The notes under the pieces: model-generated
Database searches by the model: none
Told to the model about the DNA's origin: nothing
Seen by the model: only the letters and a program-made list of their open reading frames with translations
Made by a program: the position numbers and the translations under genes
Part shown: positions 1,783-10,326 of the stretch, piece after piece
Numbering within the stretch: position 1 is the stretch's first letter
How the letters are laid out: each line of letters opens with the position of its first letter
Assembly: GCA_022819945.1 (NCBI GenBank)
Contig: JAJEGI010000108.1
Coordinates: forward strand, 1-64,000
DNA length: 64,000 nt
Source: Candidatus Poribacteria bacterium
Lineage (GTDB): Bacteria > Poribacteria > WGA-4E > WGA-3G
Direction: 5' to 3'

Positions 1783-3711
1783 ATGCCGAAACAAAACTTC
1801 AACGAAAAACTGACTGCCCTCCTCAAAACCCATCCCAACTTTCTTGACGATGCTGGTGAACTTATCCCCGCCGCTGTCAGAGACCACGCATGGCGACTCG
1901 ACCACAACCTCATCAGGTTACTCCTTACTGACAATGAGATAAAAGCAAAGTTCTTTGACGAAATTGACGGACATTGGGTCTTCAACTACAACACCTTCAT
2001 CGACTACATCACCGCTAAAAACTTCCTCGCTAATTCCTACACGCAGTTTCGCAACAAAATTGGTTTGAACATTGACGGCAAGTTTCTCCGCGAACGCGGC
2101 GAGGTGTCACTCGTGTGGCCCTACAAAGATTGTGTCCTTGAAGGCGGACAGACAAAGGAAGAAGAAAAACGCAAAGAGATTTTCTTCAACGAAATCCTTG
2201 CCCAAGACGAAATCAACCGGATGTTCGATCCAAAGGTGCTCACGAACTGGAAACGCCACACTGTTGACGGAGAACAAGAAGTAACGGACATCCAACGCGA
2301 CGAAAACGGCATCATCCGCGAAAACCTCATTATCAAAGGCAATAACCTCATCGCGCTCCACACCCTCAAACAACAATTCCGGGGACAGGTCAAACTGATT
2401 TACATTGATCCACCGTACAATACTGGAAGTGATAGTTTTGGTTACAACGATAGTTTTAACCATTCCAGTTGGCTAACGTTTATGAAAAATCGGTTGGAGG
2501 TGGCGCGAGAGTTTTTGACAGATAACGGAATTATCCTGATTCACATTGACGATCAGGAAATGCACTATTTGAAACTTGTTGCTGACGAGATATTCGGTAG
2601 AGATAACTTTATTGCGACCGTCCCGAGGAAAACCCGAAGTGGCAAAAGTGATGTCCCTTACAAACTATCACAAGATTTTGACTGGATGCTAATGTACACA
2701 AAAGGCGCGTCAAAAAAAGATAACCTCTTTCAGCGGGACGTTTCACGAAAGTATCACAAAACACCAGACTTTCCTGACGATGAATGGAGACTCAGCGATC
2801 TTACGACTCAACGGACAATTTACGAACGTCCTAATTCAAATTTTACATTGGTAAATCCAAGAAACGGAGAAGGATTTCCAGTAAATCCCAATCGCTGCTG
2901 GGGTATTACCAAAGATTCAGTAGATGAATATCTAAGAAAAGGAAAAATAGTTTTCCCTGGCGATTATGATTTTCTCAACATAAAACGTCCGGCTATGCGG
3001 GTTTTTAAGTCAGAAGATATAGGAAAGACGGCTTATGTATCCTCGGATTTCCTGAATCAGGTGATGGATGAATTACTGAAGAGTATGGTCAACAAGAAAG
3101 GCACAGATGAAATTGTAGAGATTTTTGGGAGAAAGGCGTTCTCTTATCCGAAAAATGAACTACTGATGCAACGCATTATTGAATACACAACAAAAGAAGG
3201 GGATATTGTTTTAGACTTCCACTTAGGCTCAGGCACAACCGCCGCCGTCGCCCACAAAATGGGCAGACAATACATCGGTATCGAGCAGATGGACTATGCC
3301 GAAACGCTTCCCGTTGAACGTTTAAAAAAAGTGATTGCTGGTGAACAAGGCGGTATCTCTGAATCTGTCGATTGGCAGGGTGGTGGCGATTTCATCTACT
3401 GCGAACTCATGCCATACAACCAAGCCTATGTCGACAAGATTCAAACCGCACAATCCTCCGAAGCACTTGTAGCACTCTGGAAAGAGATTGCTGAAAACTC
3501 TTTCCTGAATTGGTATGTCAACGCAGAAATGCCGGAAGAAGCAGTAGAAGACTTCATCACTATTAACGACGTAGAAAAACAGAAGCATCTACTGGCTGAA
3601 CTATTGGATAAAAATCAGCTCTATGTCAACCTCTCCGAAATAGCGGATGCGGATTTTGAGGTGAGTGAGGATGATAAAACATTGAATAAGGCGTTTTATG
3701 GTTTGTCCTAA
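1783..3711 (+). CDS. Type III restriction-modification system methyltransferase (Mod subunit)
   Basis: DPPYNTGSDSFGYNDSF (DPPY motif IV) followed by DFHLGSGTTAAVAHKMGRQYIGIEQMDYAE (SAM motif); beta-class N6-adenine MTase order; res gene downstream on the same strand. Confidence 0.9.
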   Translation: MPKQNFNEKLTALLKTHPNFLDDAGELIPAAVRDHAWRLDHNLIRLLLTDNEIKAKFFDEIDGHWVFNYNTFIDYITAKNFLANSYTQFRNKIGLNIDGKFLRERGEVSLVWPYKDCVLEGGQTKEEEKRKEIFFNEILAQDEINRMFDPKVLTNWKRHTVDGEQEVTDIQRDENGIIRENLIIKGNNLIALHTLKQQFRGQVKLIYIDPPYNTGSDSFGYNDSFNHSSWLTFMKNRLEVAREFLTDNGIILIHIDDQEMHYLKLVADEIFGRDNFIATVPRKTRSGKSDVPYKLSQDFDWMLMYTKGASKKDNLFQRDVSRKYHKTPDFPDDEWRLSDLTTQRTIYERPNSNFTLVNPRNGEGFPVNPNRCWGITKDSVDEYLRKGKIVFPGDYDFLNIKRPAMRVFKSEDIGKTAYVSSDFLNQVMDELLKSMVNKKGTDEIVEIFGRKAFSYPKNELLMQRIIEYTTKEGDIVLDFHLGSGTTAAVAHKMGRQYIGIEQMDYAETLPVERLKKVIAGEQGGISESVDWQGGGDFIYCELMPYNQAYVDKIQTAQSSEALVALWKEIAENSFLNWYVNAEMPEEAVEDFITINDVEKQKHLLAELLDKNQLYVNLSEIADADFEVSEDDKTLNKAFYGLS

Positions 3712-4693: not shown

Positions 4694-4991
4694 CTTCACG
4701 CTCCGTGGACATTCCAATTTCACACTTTACTACGAGGTTATACGTGTATAAAGGACACTCAGCTTTCAACTCTCCATCATCTGATGCTGTGTTGACGATG
4801 AAGTATCTATGCAACTCTATCATGATTGTATCACCGGTTGTTAAATCTACTCAAGCAGACGATCCCACGTGGGGATAAATAAGACCGATATTTTAGAAAG
4901 CGACTTGTTATGCCTAAGTAGAAAATATGGATTTTGCGGTGAATGAGGAAGATAAGGTGTTTTATGGAGATTTTTGATGAAAGGTGGAGAA

Positions 4992-6431
4992 ATGATTGAA
5001 GAAAAAAAAGAAGAACTAAGGCAATTGCTGGAAGAAGCAACAGCGGATTTGGAAATACAACCTCGTTTTACTCATCCACCGCTGCCTTCTATTGATATGC
5101 ACAAATATAAATGGTACCTACAGGAAGCCTGGACATCTTATTCGCCAAATTGCGCATGGTTTTTGCGTCAATTTAAACTTGAAACCAACAAAGATACAAA
5201 ATCAAAGCTTCTTGAGTTCATAGGAGTGGAACTGGATTCATTTATTTGTGAAGACAGAATTTTACTTAGTACCTTTATTGTATTAAGTGGTCTTGGCAAC
5301 GGAGTCACTCTGAATGAATTTTTGGAAAAACTTCTGAAAATTGCTATTTTTGGAGGGATAGAGGAAGGGGTATCGGCTTTTGAGAGGTGTACTGCTAAAG
5401 ATGCCTCCGTTTCATTTGAATTTATTGCATTGCTTGAAGGAATAACCTTAGAGGCAGAAGTAGAGGTTTTTAAGGGAATACGTCTTGTTCCGCTTCCTTC
5501 TAGTGGTATAGTAGAGGACCTCCCACTCTGTTTGGGAAGTCTATCTCCGACTGATAACTCTCGTTTCTTTAGAAAAACGCTGCTTACCATTGAATATTCT
5601 ATATCTCCCCTATTTTCCAAACCGTATATTCAAACCAATACAGATGTTAAGAATACAGCAGACGAGTATCATAAGCTAAGAAAAAATTTTGGGGTTGAGG
5701 TAAAAGGTGGAAAATTTCCGGAATATGCCAACACAGTATTTACAGTATTCCACCAAAAATTCTGTCAGGCATTGTCTTTAGCCTGCAACTCAGGGATTAA
5801 GTATGCAATGGATTGGAATTTTCTGGCAGAAGATGAACTTTTAAATATTAATCCTACTCACGCTCGGTCGGTTGGTTGGTACCCGGGGCCGTTTGGAGCT
5901 CCTATTAAGGTCGGAGACACCCAGATAGAAGAAGCTAAGCGTCTGTATAAGATTTTGGTTGACACAACTTCAAACACAACCTCGAAAATTGGAAAAAAAT
6001 TGCAGATAGCACTTAATAGATGGATACAGTCAAAAACAAATAGGAATGATGTTGATAAAATGATCGATTTAGGTGTAGCCTTTGAATCTATCTATTTGCC
6101 AAAAAATAACACAGATCAGTTAGCTTTTCAATTCCGTCTCCGCGCTTCTTGGCACTTAGGGAAAAATAAAGCAGAGAGGAGAAAACTAATAGACGAATTT
6201 GATGCCATATATACCTTGCGTTCCCAAGCTGTTCATAATGGAGAACTTTCTCCAACGGTTAAGATTAGGAAACGGAATCAGAATAATCCAGGGGAGTCCG
6301 TTCCTACATCAGAGTTTCTTCCAAGAGCACAAGAGTTATGTCGTGCTTCGATAATAAAGATCCTGAAAGATGGTGAATTCCCTGATGATGCGTATTGGAA
6401 GGACTTGATACTCGGTGAAGAGACCATGTAG
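4992..6431 (+). CDS. Hypothetical HEPN-domain-like protein inside type III R-M locus
   Basis: About 480-aa ORF; C-terminal helix with YTLRSQAVHNGEL, a candidate HEPN Rx4H motif (RSQAVH). Start codon uncertain (4974/4992). Confidence 0.6.
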   Translation: MIEEKKEELRQLLEEATADLEIQPRFTHPPLPSIDMHKYKWYLQEAWTSYSPNCAWFLRQFKLETNKDTKSKLLEFIGVELDSFICEDRILLSTFIVLSGLGNGVTLNEFLEKLLKIAIFGGIEEGVSAFERCTAKDASVSFEFIALLEGITLEAEVEVFKGIRLVPLPSSGIVEDLPLCLGSLSPTDNSRFFRKTLLTIEYSISPLFSKPYIQTNTDVKNTADEYHKLRKNFGVEVKGGKFPEYANTVFTVFHQKFCQALSLACNSGIKYAMDWNFLAEDELLNINPTHARSVGWYPGPFGAPIKVGDTQIEEAKRLYKILVDTTSNTTSKIGKKLQIALNRWIQSKTNRNDVDKMIDLGVAFESIYLPKNNTDQLAFQFRLRASWHLGKNKAERRKLIDEFDAIYTLRSQAVHNGELSPTVKIRKRNQNNPGESVPTSEFLPRAQELCRASIIKILKDGEFPDDAYWKDLILGEETM

Positions 6432-6525
6432 CGCGAACTTTTAGTTTGCGTTTTTGTAGTTTGTATTGTAGCGCGAACTTTTAGTTTGCGTGATAATGAG
6501 GCACAAACTAAAAGTTTGTGCTACA
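6427..6525. repeat. REP/BIME-like unit upstream of RAYT (single repeat 6427-6451 plus head-to-head 59-bp unit 6467-6525)
   Basis: tgtagcgcgaacttttagtttgcgt at 6427 and 6467; inverted gcacaaactaaaagtttgtgctaca at 6501-6525. Confidence 0.9.
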
Positions 6526-6540
6526 ATTAGGGAACCACAG

Positions 6541-7260
6541 ATGAATCATTTTGACTACAAATCTTTTTATCGTCGTAACTTGCCGCATATACAACCGCCA
6601 GGTGCAACTTTCTTTGTAACATTCCATCTCGCGGGTTCTCTACCACGGCGTGTGCTGCAGCAGTGGAAAGCGGAAAAATTGCGTCTTCTCAATCTGGAAA
6701 GTAACGCTGATAGGGTGACAAATGAACATAAGACATTTAAGGAAAAAGAAAAATCTGATGAATGGAAACGACAGTGGTTCCGAAAAATTGAAAAAACTTT
6801 AGATGATGCACAAAACGGTCCCGTTTGGCTCAAGGATAATCAAATTGCTAAAGTAGTAGCGGATAGTATGCACTACTTGGATGGAAAAGTATATTGTTTG
6901 GACACTTACTGTATCATGGCAAATCACGTTCATGCCGTGTTTACACCACTTCCAATACAACCTTCTACTGTAGTGCGAACTTTTAGTTTGGATCCCAAAA
7001 ACCCACAAACTAAAAGTTTGTGCTACAATACGCTTTCTTCTATTATGCAATCGCTCAAAGGTTATACTGCAAGGAAAGCTAATCAACTCTTAGGGCGACG
7101 CGGCGCATTTTGGCAACACGAAAGTTATGACCATTGTGTACGAAATCCGAACGAATTGAAACGGATTGTAACGTATGTTCTCAATAATCCTGTAAAAGCA
7201 GGTTTAGTGGATCGATGGGAAAAGTGGCCGTGGAATTATTACTGTAGCGCGAACTTTTAG
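6541..7260 (+). CDS. REP-associated tyrosine transposase (RAYT, Y1/TnpA_REP family)
   Basis: FYRRNLPHIQPPGATFFVTFHLAGSLP, YCIMANHVHAVFTPL (HUH), SIMQSLKGYTARKAN, RGAFWQHESYDHCVRNPNELKRIVTYVLNNPVKAGLV; associated 59-bp palindromic REP-like units. Confidence 0.93.
   Translation: MNHFDYKSFYRRNLPHIQPPGATFFVTFHLAGSLPRRVLQQWKAEKLRLLNLESNADRVTNEHKTFKEKEKSDEWKRQWFRKIEKTLDDAQNGPVWLKDNQIAKVVADSMHYLDGKVYCLDTYCIMANHVHAVFTPLPIQPSTVVRTFSLDPKNPQTKSLCYNTLSSIMQSLKGYTARKANQLLGRRGAFWQHESYDHCVRNPNELKRIVTYVLNNPVKAGLVDRWEKWPWNYYCSANF
6969..7027. repeat. REP/BIME-like 59-bp unit inside the RAYT coding sequence
   Basis: tgtagtgcgaacttttagtttg (6969) ... cacaaactaaaagtttgtgctaca (to 7027), in frame within the RAYT. 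Confidence 0.88.
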
Positions 7261-7301
7261 TTTGCGTGATAATGATGCACAAACTAAAAGTTTGTGCTAC
7301 A
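7243..7301. repeat. REP/BIME-like 59-bp unit overlapping the RAYT stop codon
   Basis: tgtagcgcgaacttttagtttgcgtgataatgatgcacaaactaaaagtttgtgctaca; the TAG stop of the RAYT lies in the repeat. Confidence 0.9.
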
Positions 7302-7731: not shown

Positions 7732-10326
7732 ATGCTTGAGCAATTTCTTCATGAACAACTTGAAATCGCGTTTGAGTGGGGCGTTCCCAAACCTGAAATA
7801 TCGGGTAGCATCACGCAAAACCTGAATCCTGCATTTCAATTGCGTCCCTACCAAGAAGACGCTTATGCAAGCTTTATCCACTATTTTAACACCGATCTCC
7901 CCGGCAAAGAAAAACCGATCCATCTGCTATTCAACATGGCAACCGGTAGTGGCAAAACCCTCATCATGGCAGGTCTGATTCTCTACCTCTATGAGAAAGG
8001 CTACCGCAACTTCCTCTTTTTCGTCAACTCAACCAATATCATTGAGAAAACAAAGGACAACTTCCTGAACCCGCGCGCGGCAAAATACCTTTTCAGTCAA
8101 GACATCCGTTTTGAAGGGAAGCCGGTACCCGTGACGCAAGTAGAGAATTTTGAAGGGGTCAACGAAAACGACATCAATATCTGCTTTACGACAATCCAGC
8201 AACTGCACACCGATATGACATCGGAAAAGGAGAATGCTTTAACTTATGAAAGTTTCGCTGAGCAGGAAATTGTGCTCTTGGCAGATGAAGCACACCATAT
8301 AAATGTCAGTACCAAATCTCAACAAGGGATGGAACTGTTTGAAAGTTGGGAAAACACTGTACAGCATATCTTTAAATCTAATGATGCCAATCTATTGCTG
8401 GAATTCACTGCCACCCACGATTACGAAACACCTACGATGGTAGAGAAATATCGGAATAAAGTTATCAATCGTTATGACCTGATAAATTTTCGGAATGATA
8501 AGTTTTCAAAAGAGGTTGTGCTTGTGCATTCCGATTTGGATCAGGACTCACGCATCTTGCAAGCACTCATTCTCAATCAGTACAAACAAGAGGTTGCGGC
8601 GAAAAACAACATTAATCTGAAACCTGTTATTCTGTTCAAGGCACAGCGAACAATCGCACAATCGCAAGAAAACAAGGAAAGCTTTCACAGACTGATTGAT
8701 GGACTCACCGATGATCAAATTCAAAGCATTCGGCAATCCCATCTTGAGATTGTTAAACGGGCATTCCGCTTCTTCGATGAAAATAACATTAGTGCAGATG
8801 ATTTGGCACGACGCTTAAAATCGGAATTTCAGGAAGCATACTGCCTATCAGTCAACGACGAAAACGAAAAGAAAAACTATCAGATGCAGGTGAATACACT
8901 TGAAGACCAAAATAACCCAATCCGTGCTATTTTTGCCGTGCAGAAACTCAATGAAGGGTGGGATGTACTAAACCTATTTGATATTGTCCGTTGCTACGAA
9001 ACACGTGATTCAGGTAAAAACAAAATCGGAACAACCACAATCTCTGAAGCGCAACTTATCGGGCGCGGTGCCCGTTACTTTCCTTTTGTCCTGCCAGACC
9101 ACCCAGACAAGTTCCGCCGTAAGTTTGACGAAAACCTTGACCATGAACTCCGCGTATTGGAAGAACTCCATTACCACAGCATTCACGATTCGCGCTACAT
9201 TTCTGAAATCCGAACTGCCCTAATTGAACAAGGGATGATGGACGAACGCGTCGTAACTCGCGAACTAAAGTTGAAGGAGAAATTCAAGAAAACCGATTTT
9301 TACAAATACGGTGTTATCTGGCTTAATGATCAAGTACCTAAAGATTATCAACACGTCAACGCTTTTGACGATTTAGCCAGTCTAAGTGTGAAGCGAAAAA
9401 ACTACGAGCACATCATCCATACAGGTTTCACGGGTCAAATTACCGCGATGGAGAATGAGGCGACACCGGTGGAACAGAACGAAGATGGACAGGACATACC
9501 CATCAGTGATATTGAACAGAATATTCTCAGATCCGCAATTGCGTACAACCCGTTTTTTACGTTTGCATCGCTTAAACACTATTTTCCACACTTAACATCT
9601 GTCCGCGAATTTATGGCATCCGAGAACTATTTGGGCGGCTTGGCAATCACCTTCAAAGGAAATCTCTCCGATTTAGAAGAAAATCGCTCAGCAAAACTGT
9701 CCGCATGTGAAGGATTGTTAAGTCAAATCGAAACCGAAATTCAGGAACAAGCTACAGAGTATCAAGGGACAAAACACTTTCGACCGAAACAAATTCACGA
9801 TATTTTCAAAGATAAACTCCTGAAATTTGACGTACGCAACCCACGCGCAACCATTGATCGACAGTTTGAAAATGAAAACTGGTATCCCTTTAATGCCCTC
9901 TACGGCACGAGTGAAGAGAAAGCCTTTGTTAATCTTTTAATCAGAAAAGTTAAGGACTTAGCCGTAGATTATGACGAGATTTATTTACTTCGCAACGAAG
10001 GGCATTTTGCTATCTATAACTTCACCGATGGGCAGGCGTTTTATCCTGATTTCGCCCTGTTCCTTGAAGAAAAAAAAGGGAAATTGGTATGTTATCAGTT
10101 TTTCGTTGAACCGAAAGGCAAATTTCTCCAACCGGCTGATCAGTGGAAAGAAAGATTCATGTATGAAATAACTACCGAATTTAAAGACAAACTTTTAAGG
10201 ATTGACAGCAAAGAATTCCGTTTGATTGGTCTGCCATTCTATAATGAAACAGATGAAAATCCTTTCTGGGATGATCTCAGCACTGCATTAATGATGGGTG
10301 CTGCGCTGCGATTGCCGATGGATTAA
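7732..10326 (+). CDS. Type III restriction enzyme (Res subunit), DEAD/DEAH helicase plus C-terminal nuclease
   Basis: LLFNMATGSGKTLIMAGLILYLYEKG (Walker A), EIVLLADEAHHIN (DEAH), SEAQLIGRGARYFPF (motif VI), C-terminal YPDFALFLEE...YQFFVEPKG (PD-(D/E)xK-like). Confidence 0.92.
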   Translation: MLEQFLHEQLEIAFEWGVPKPEISGSITQNLNPAFQLRPYQEDAYASFIHYFNTDLPGKEKPIHLLFNMATGSGKTLIMAGLILYLYEKGYRNFLFFVNSTNIIEKTKDNFLNPRAAKYLFSQDIRFEGKPVPVTQVENFEGVNENDINICFTTIQQLHTDMTSEKENALTYESFAEQEIVLLADEAHHINVSTKSQQGMELFESWENTVQHIFKSNDANLLLEFTATHDYETPTMVEKYRNKVINRYDLINFRNDKFSKEVVLVHSDLDQDSRILQALILNQYKQEVAAKNNINLKPVILFKAQRTIAQSQENKESFHRLIDGLTDDQIQSIRQSHLEIVKRAFRFFDENNISADDLARRLKSEFQEAYCLSVNDENEKKNYQMQVNTLEDQNNPIRAIFAVQKLNEGWDVLNLFDIVRCYETRDSGKNKIGTTTISEAQLIGRGARYFPFVLPDHPDKFRRKFDENLDHELRVLEELHYHSIHDSRYISEIRTALIEQGMMDERVVTRELKLKEKFKKTDFYKYGVIWLNDQVPKDYQHVNAFDDLASLSVKRKNYEHIIHTGFTGQITAMENEATPVEQNEDGQDIPISDIEQNILRSAIAYNPFFTFASLKHYFPHLTSVREFMASENYLGGLAITFKGNLSDLEENRSAKLSACEGLLSQIETEIQEQATEYQGTKHFRPKQIHDIFKDKLLKFDVRNPRATIDRQFENENWYPFNALYGTSEEKAFVNLLIRKVKDLAVDYDEIYLLRNEGHFAIYNFTDGQAFYPDFALFLEEKKGKLVCYQFFVEPKGKFLQPADQWKERFMYEITTEFKDKLLRIDSKEFRLIGLPFYNETDENPFWDDLSTALMMGAALRLPMD

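Follow-up and report, generated by a model that had tools for sequence, protein, structure and literature searches.

An ancestral, in-frame REP pair in the coding sequence of a Poribacteria RAYT gene resembles the REPs that flank the gene

Results

The window analysed here is a 64,000-nt stretch of a Candidatus Poribacteria contig (JAJEGI010000108.1, assembly GCA_022819945.1). It contains a RAYT (TnpAREP) gene of 239 codons on the forward strand at 6541–7260, with an ATG start and a TAG stop. The start is most likely the ATG at 6541 and not a GTG at 6490, because orthologues start at the position of this ATG. The gene sits between mod (1783–3711) and res (7732–10326) of a type III restriction-modification locus, which also holds an ORF at 4974–6431 with no assigned function. 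Directly upstream of mod lies a putative Uma2-family nuclease (1099–1770) that matches the PADLOC candidate PDC-S03. The order mod, homologue of ORF 4974–6431, RAYT, res recurs in genome G031 (locus L140), and the RAYT adjoins res in G056 (L138, on a contig that begins just upstream) and G011 (L070). The arrangement thus recurs across two genera, in full in G031 and in part in G056 and G011. Six other RAYTs, examined together with wide flanking regions, lack it.

Three head-to-head REP pairs, each 59 nt long, were read directly off the window at the places given by the initial annotation: one upstream of the gene (6467–6525), one in frame inside it (6969–7027) and one at its 3′ end (7243–7301). 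In every unit two REPs of 22 nt, left and right, face each other in inverted orientation across a 15-nt spacer, and in each REP T-GTAG precedes a short hairpin. The two flanking units differ at 1 of 59 bases; the internal unit shares their right arm exactly, has one change in its left arm and differs in its spacer. The internal unit encodes residues ~143–163, and its right REP (7006–7027, reverse strand), which encodes the peptide QTKSLCYN, is the portion of the unit that is conserved across Poribacteria. The 3′ unit encodes the last five residues of the protein (CSANF) and spans the TAG stop at 7258–7260. A single left REP, GTAG plus hairpin, lies further upstream (6427–6448, forward strand), and its TAG is the stop codon of ORF 4974–6431, such that two consecutive genes each stop at a TAG belonging to a GTAG REP. 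A REP spans the stop codon in about one-third of the RAYTs checked, including three from Chloroflexi (L064, L067 and L068).

These repeats are dispersed throughout the genome. With up to three mismatches, a 16-nt core was found 8 times in the window (0.77 expected by chance), and the whole genome contains 39 REP sites compared with 1 for a reversed-pattern control. Nearly all REPs at 23 other loci inspected in this genome are intergenic; two of the loci overlap putative ORFs of at least 100 aa (110 and 146 aa), and no sign of REPs as general in-frame inserts was seen among the 23. All three units form a stable hairpin (z −6.9 to −9.5), each folding as one long stem as single-stranded DNA or RNA, and the internal unit has a 22-bp stem with a folding energy of −15.5 kcal/mol as DNA (z −7.1) and −28.6 kcal/mol as RNA (z −8.2). 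The GTAG at the hairpin foot, the inverted pairing, the multiple copies and the mostly intergenic location support the proposed identity as REPs arranged in BIMEs. A promoter scan yielded no more than expected by chance. We note that in Poribacteria genomes (G000 and relatives) several REP families coexist, each with ~10 to 200 copies, and that some, such as G031, hold two distinct RAYTs of this clade.

The identification of the gene product as a RAYT, made initially from the window alone, is supported by similarity to E. coli TnpAREP (PDB 4er8), which matched by sequence (E = 0.002) and was the best hit of a fold search against the PDB (E = 8e-6; the sole match with E ≤ 0.001). Residues H129, H131, W191, Q192, D197, H198, R201, Y212 and N216 align with catalytic and GTAG-reading sites of 4er8, giving the HuH motif, a single catalytic Y with an N four residues on and the W/Q/H/R GTAG readers of RAYTs; the catalytic residues are intact. 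Matches to NCBIfam NF047646 (E = 2.8e-19; 69.4 bits against a curated cut-off of 80) and Pfam Y1_Tnp (21.7 against 23) fall below their thresholds, the latter just below; interruption of the match by the insert is the probable reason. As in other RAYTs, the gene is flanked by GTAG REPs with dispersed copies elsewhere in the genome. The RAYT is a domesticated transposase whose own gene holds the repeat that it probably spreads.

In an AlphaFold model (mean pLDDT 75), confidence falls below 50 at residues 145–151 and 153–158, between the HuH strand (130–136) and helix alphaC (165–184), and the internal REP pair thus encodes a disordered loop. Relative to a RAYT without the segment (L064), the net insertion is 18 residues (HuH-to-W spacing of 62 compared with 44), which replaces the earlier figure of 22. 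Outside the loop, comparison with the nearest relative in the set (L034) gave dN 0.11, dS 0.73 and dN/dS of about 0.15, indicative of purifying selection; inside the loop, dN is 2–3 times higher.

The internal segment is not peculiar to this gene. The initial annotation left open whether the insertion was unique, and this is ruled out by about 30 Poribacteria RAYTs that carry the segment or its remnant at the same position; the nearest named relative is from a Candidatus Poribacteria MAG (L063). Two outgroup RAYTs, L064 (Chloroflexi) and L069, lack the segment. Most relatives retain no more than its right arm. In nine Poribacteria RAYTs (L001, L034, L035, L036, L043, L049, L050, L053 and L075, with L070 nearly identical to L043), the inner segment resembles REPs lying no more than 900 nt from its own gene more closely than shuffled sequences do, with scores ranging from 78 in the window (shuffled maximum 28) to 29 in the weakest case, L053 (shuffled maximum 23). 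Among the remaining Poribacteria RAYTs, inner-to-flank matches were not clearly above shuffles. In a core-protein tree, the matching RAYTs lie on several deep branches, with two mainly non-matching clades of decayed copies among them, and the insertion is therefore most simply ancestral; on these sequence comparisons, it would predate the split of several genera. In L036 (genome G021), part of the RAYT 3′ end recurs downstream alongside a REP, which looks like capture by a BIME.

Two patterns suggest upkeep of the inner arm at the level of DNA. Codons at conserved residues of the nine matching RAYTs agree at 62% gene-wide and at 94% over QTKSLCYN, and the window shifted by one from this peptide reaches 99.6%, the highest of 175 windows, whereas eleven non-matching RAYTs have 76% agreement in the arm and 75% gene-wide; because flank match defined the two groups, this test is partly circular. 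Inner-to-flank matches within the same locus sum to 502, compared with a permuted mean of 404 (P = 2e-4, and also 2e-4 in a thinned set). Plain divergence since the ancestor would leave inner copies no closer to their own flanks than to the flanks of other genomes, and the observed excess opposes this. Together, the own-flank excess and the codon conservation indicate upkeep of the arm as DNA, through either exchange with the flanking copies or selection, and both patterns would fit selection, conversion or re-insertion alike.

Individual loci illustrate this similarity. The spacer region of the inner unit in L035 is identical to that of its own 3′ flank, and the inner arm of L050 is a nearly exact copy of its own GCGGTACA-type REP. 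In the window, the inner spacer is unlike both flanking spacers, so whole-unit conversion is not recent and any exchange would be either restricted to the arms or old. A TAAAAG/TAACAG flavour change that covaries with the flanks was considered as proof of concerted evolution and dropped, because a single inherited change could explain it: L001, L034 and L043 share one locus type, and their monophyly was not rejected (p-AU 0.31). Turnover of the REP family genome-wide is likewise unsupported as the cause of decay; genomes with decayed inner copies still contain old-type REPs elsewhere, and only the RAYT-flanking REPs differ.

The same loop holds REPs in other phyla. A survey of 297 genomes from the phylum of L065 (an Ignavibacteria relative), further fetched regions and the Poribacteria set provided 49 RAYTs that could be scanned over their entire coding sequence. 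An internal stretch matching the gene's own flanks was found in 14 of the 49, and 13 of these stretches lie in the HuH–alphaC loop. The fourteenth stretch (L119) consists of conserved RAYT coding sequence and seems to match a neighbouring RAYT remnant; one of the 13 loop cases, L036, additionally matches its partial 3′ duplication. The REPs differ by group, with those of L086, L090, L111, L117 and L124/L125 distinct from the Poribacteria type. In RAYTs of the Bacteroidota/Ignavibacteria group, unrelated REPs occupy this loop, and the loop of L065 holds a copy of its own REP type that is weaker but a perfect palindrome, so the loop received different REPs several times. The HuH-to-W loops of L125 (G366) and L117 (G219) reach 118 and 78 residues, seemingly through more than one REP insertion each.

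Discussion

The arrangement at this locus is already described for one TnpAREP subclass. According to Quentin et al. (2018, PMC6006769), in-frame REPs within tnpAREP genes, generally between HuH and Y, are a feature unique to subclass 2.4 (Bertels group 4) and predominant in it. The Poribacteria RAYT resembles this subclass as characterized there, with its NH[IFV]H, WQ and YIxNNP motifs (here NHVH, WQ and YVLNNP, with V for the consensus I), flanking GTAG REPs, a variable REP-derived insertion between beta3 and alphaC, and no long C-terminal extension. It differs from that account in its host phylum and in the full head-to-head REP pair still readable inside the gene. Di Nocera et al. (2013, PMC3733652) catalogued intragenic GTAG/CGTC REPs and remarked on TAG stop codons supplied by REPs. 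Nunvar et al. (2010, PMC2817692) reported that REPs lie at rayt stop codons or adjoin them, and that rayt 3′ ends have been drawn into BIMEs. Like those intragenic REPs (PMC3733652) and the Rickettsia palindromic elements, the internal unit is a palindromic repeat in frame in a protein gene, and as with the former a REP provides the stop; unlike both, the host gene here is the RAYT, and the other copies examined are almost all intergenic. E. coli TnpAREP (PDB 4ER8) shares the fold, the catalytic and GTAG-reading residues and the flanking REPs, but is much shorter (165 aa) and only 14% identical in a structural alignment. A search of the available literature found no paper on Poribacteria REPs. 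To our knowledge, E. coli TnpAREP has no internal REP. The evolutionary evidence is new: the age of the insertion, its codon-level conservation and its own-flank matching are measured here and were not met with in the available text of Quentin et al. (PMC6006769).

We favour, at a probability of roughly 0.6, a history in which a subclass-2.4-like RAYT acquired an in-frame REP pair in an ancestor, within a tolerant loop, and in which this pair kept matching the flanking REPs in some lineages and decayed where the flanks differ. The RAYT would be a HuH tyrosine transposase that processes REPs and has its own GTAG REP pairs on either side, and the internal pair would have entered the gene in an ancestor of the Poribacteria RAYT clade, at the disordered stretch that joins the HuH strand to helix alphaC and would tolerate additional residues. 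The initial suggestion of self-insertion into a permissive loop holds for the frame and the loop; insertion by the RAYT itself is plausible, with RAYT-linked REP movement the putative source of an event that was ancestral. In lineages retaining that REP type, the inner copy would have kept matching its flanks, most likely through repeated exchange with the flanking units, whether by gene conversion or by replacement that the RAYT mediates; selection for a cognate site in cis may have contributed. In lineages flanked by a different REP type, it would have decayed to an ordinary loop. A stronger version, in which the inner REP is actively kept as a cis-linked cognate site, refreshed or selected to match the REP currently read, serving as a template or feedback site and becoming a fossil once specificity changes, is considerably less probable, with about one chance in four.

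Several other explanations are compatible with parts of these data. The REP pair may be a pure passenger that entered a tolerant loop a single time and simply persisted, resembling the flanks through leftover ancestry, an explanation consistent with the modelled disorder and fast protein-level evolution of the loop, with free decay in two clades and with the view, in the available text of PMC6006769, that the extension is peripheral and of little impact. Yet in matching lineages the arm greatly exceeds the gene in synonymous codon identity, and own-flank matches exceed cross-genome matches, an excess that unattended ancestry would not give; we consider this explanation rather unlikely. Upkeep at the DNA level is also what would be expected if the RAYT limited its own expression by binding the inner REP, either in the gene or in the mRNA, and the stable hairpins in all three units and the conserved GTAG-reading residues suit such autoregulation. 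This is more doubtful again, as any REP pair gives such a fold, most relatives keep the right arm only and some RAYTs that look intact have decayed copies.

That QTKSLCYN is a conserved peptide motif with a function in the protein, and the REP likeness of its DNA secondary, seems very improbable. The peptide recurs in most Poribacteria RAYTs, but in matching lineages codons as well as residues are fixed, and the residues differ where the flanking REP type differs. Moreover, L064 and L069 lack the segment, in other phyla the peptides at this place are unrelated and derive from the REPs of those RAYTs, and the segment is modelled as disordered. Chance similarity or an assembly artefact is refuted by the score of 78 against a shuffled maximum of 28 and by the orthologous segment in many independent assemblies; the draft state of the contigs is the sole point in its favour.

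For the biology of RAYTs, a REP inside a RAYT gene is a linked record of the match between the transposase and its repeat, and bears on how this match is maintained over the long term. The conservation pattern makes concerted evolution or selection in cis testable in one small gene. If the inner copy is indeed actively kept in cis, it would record the history of RAYT specificity.
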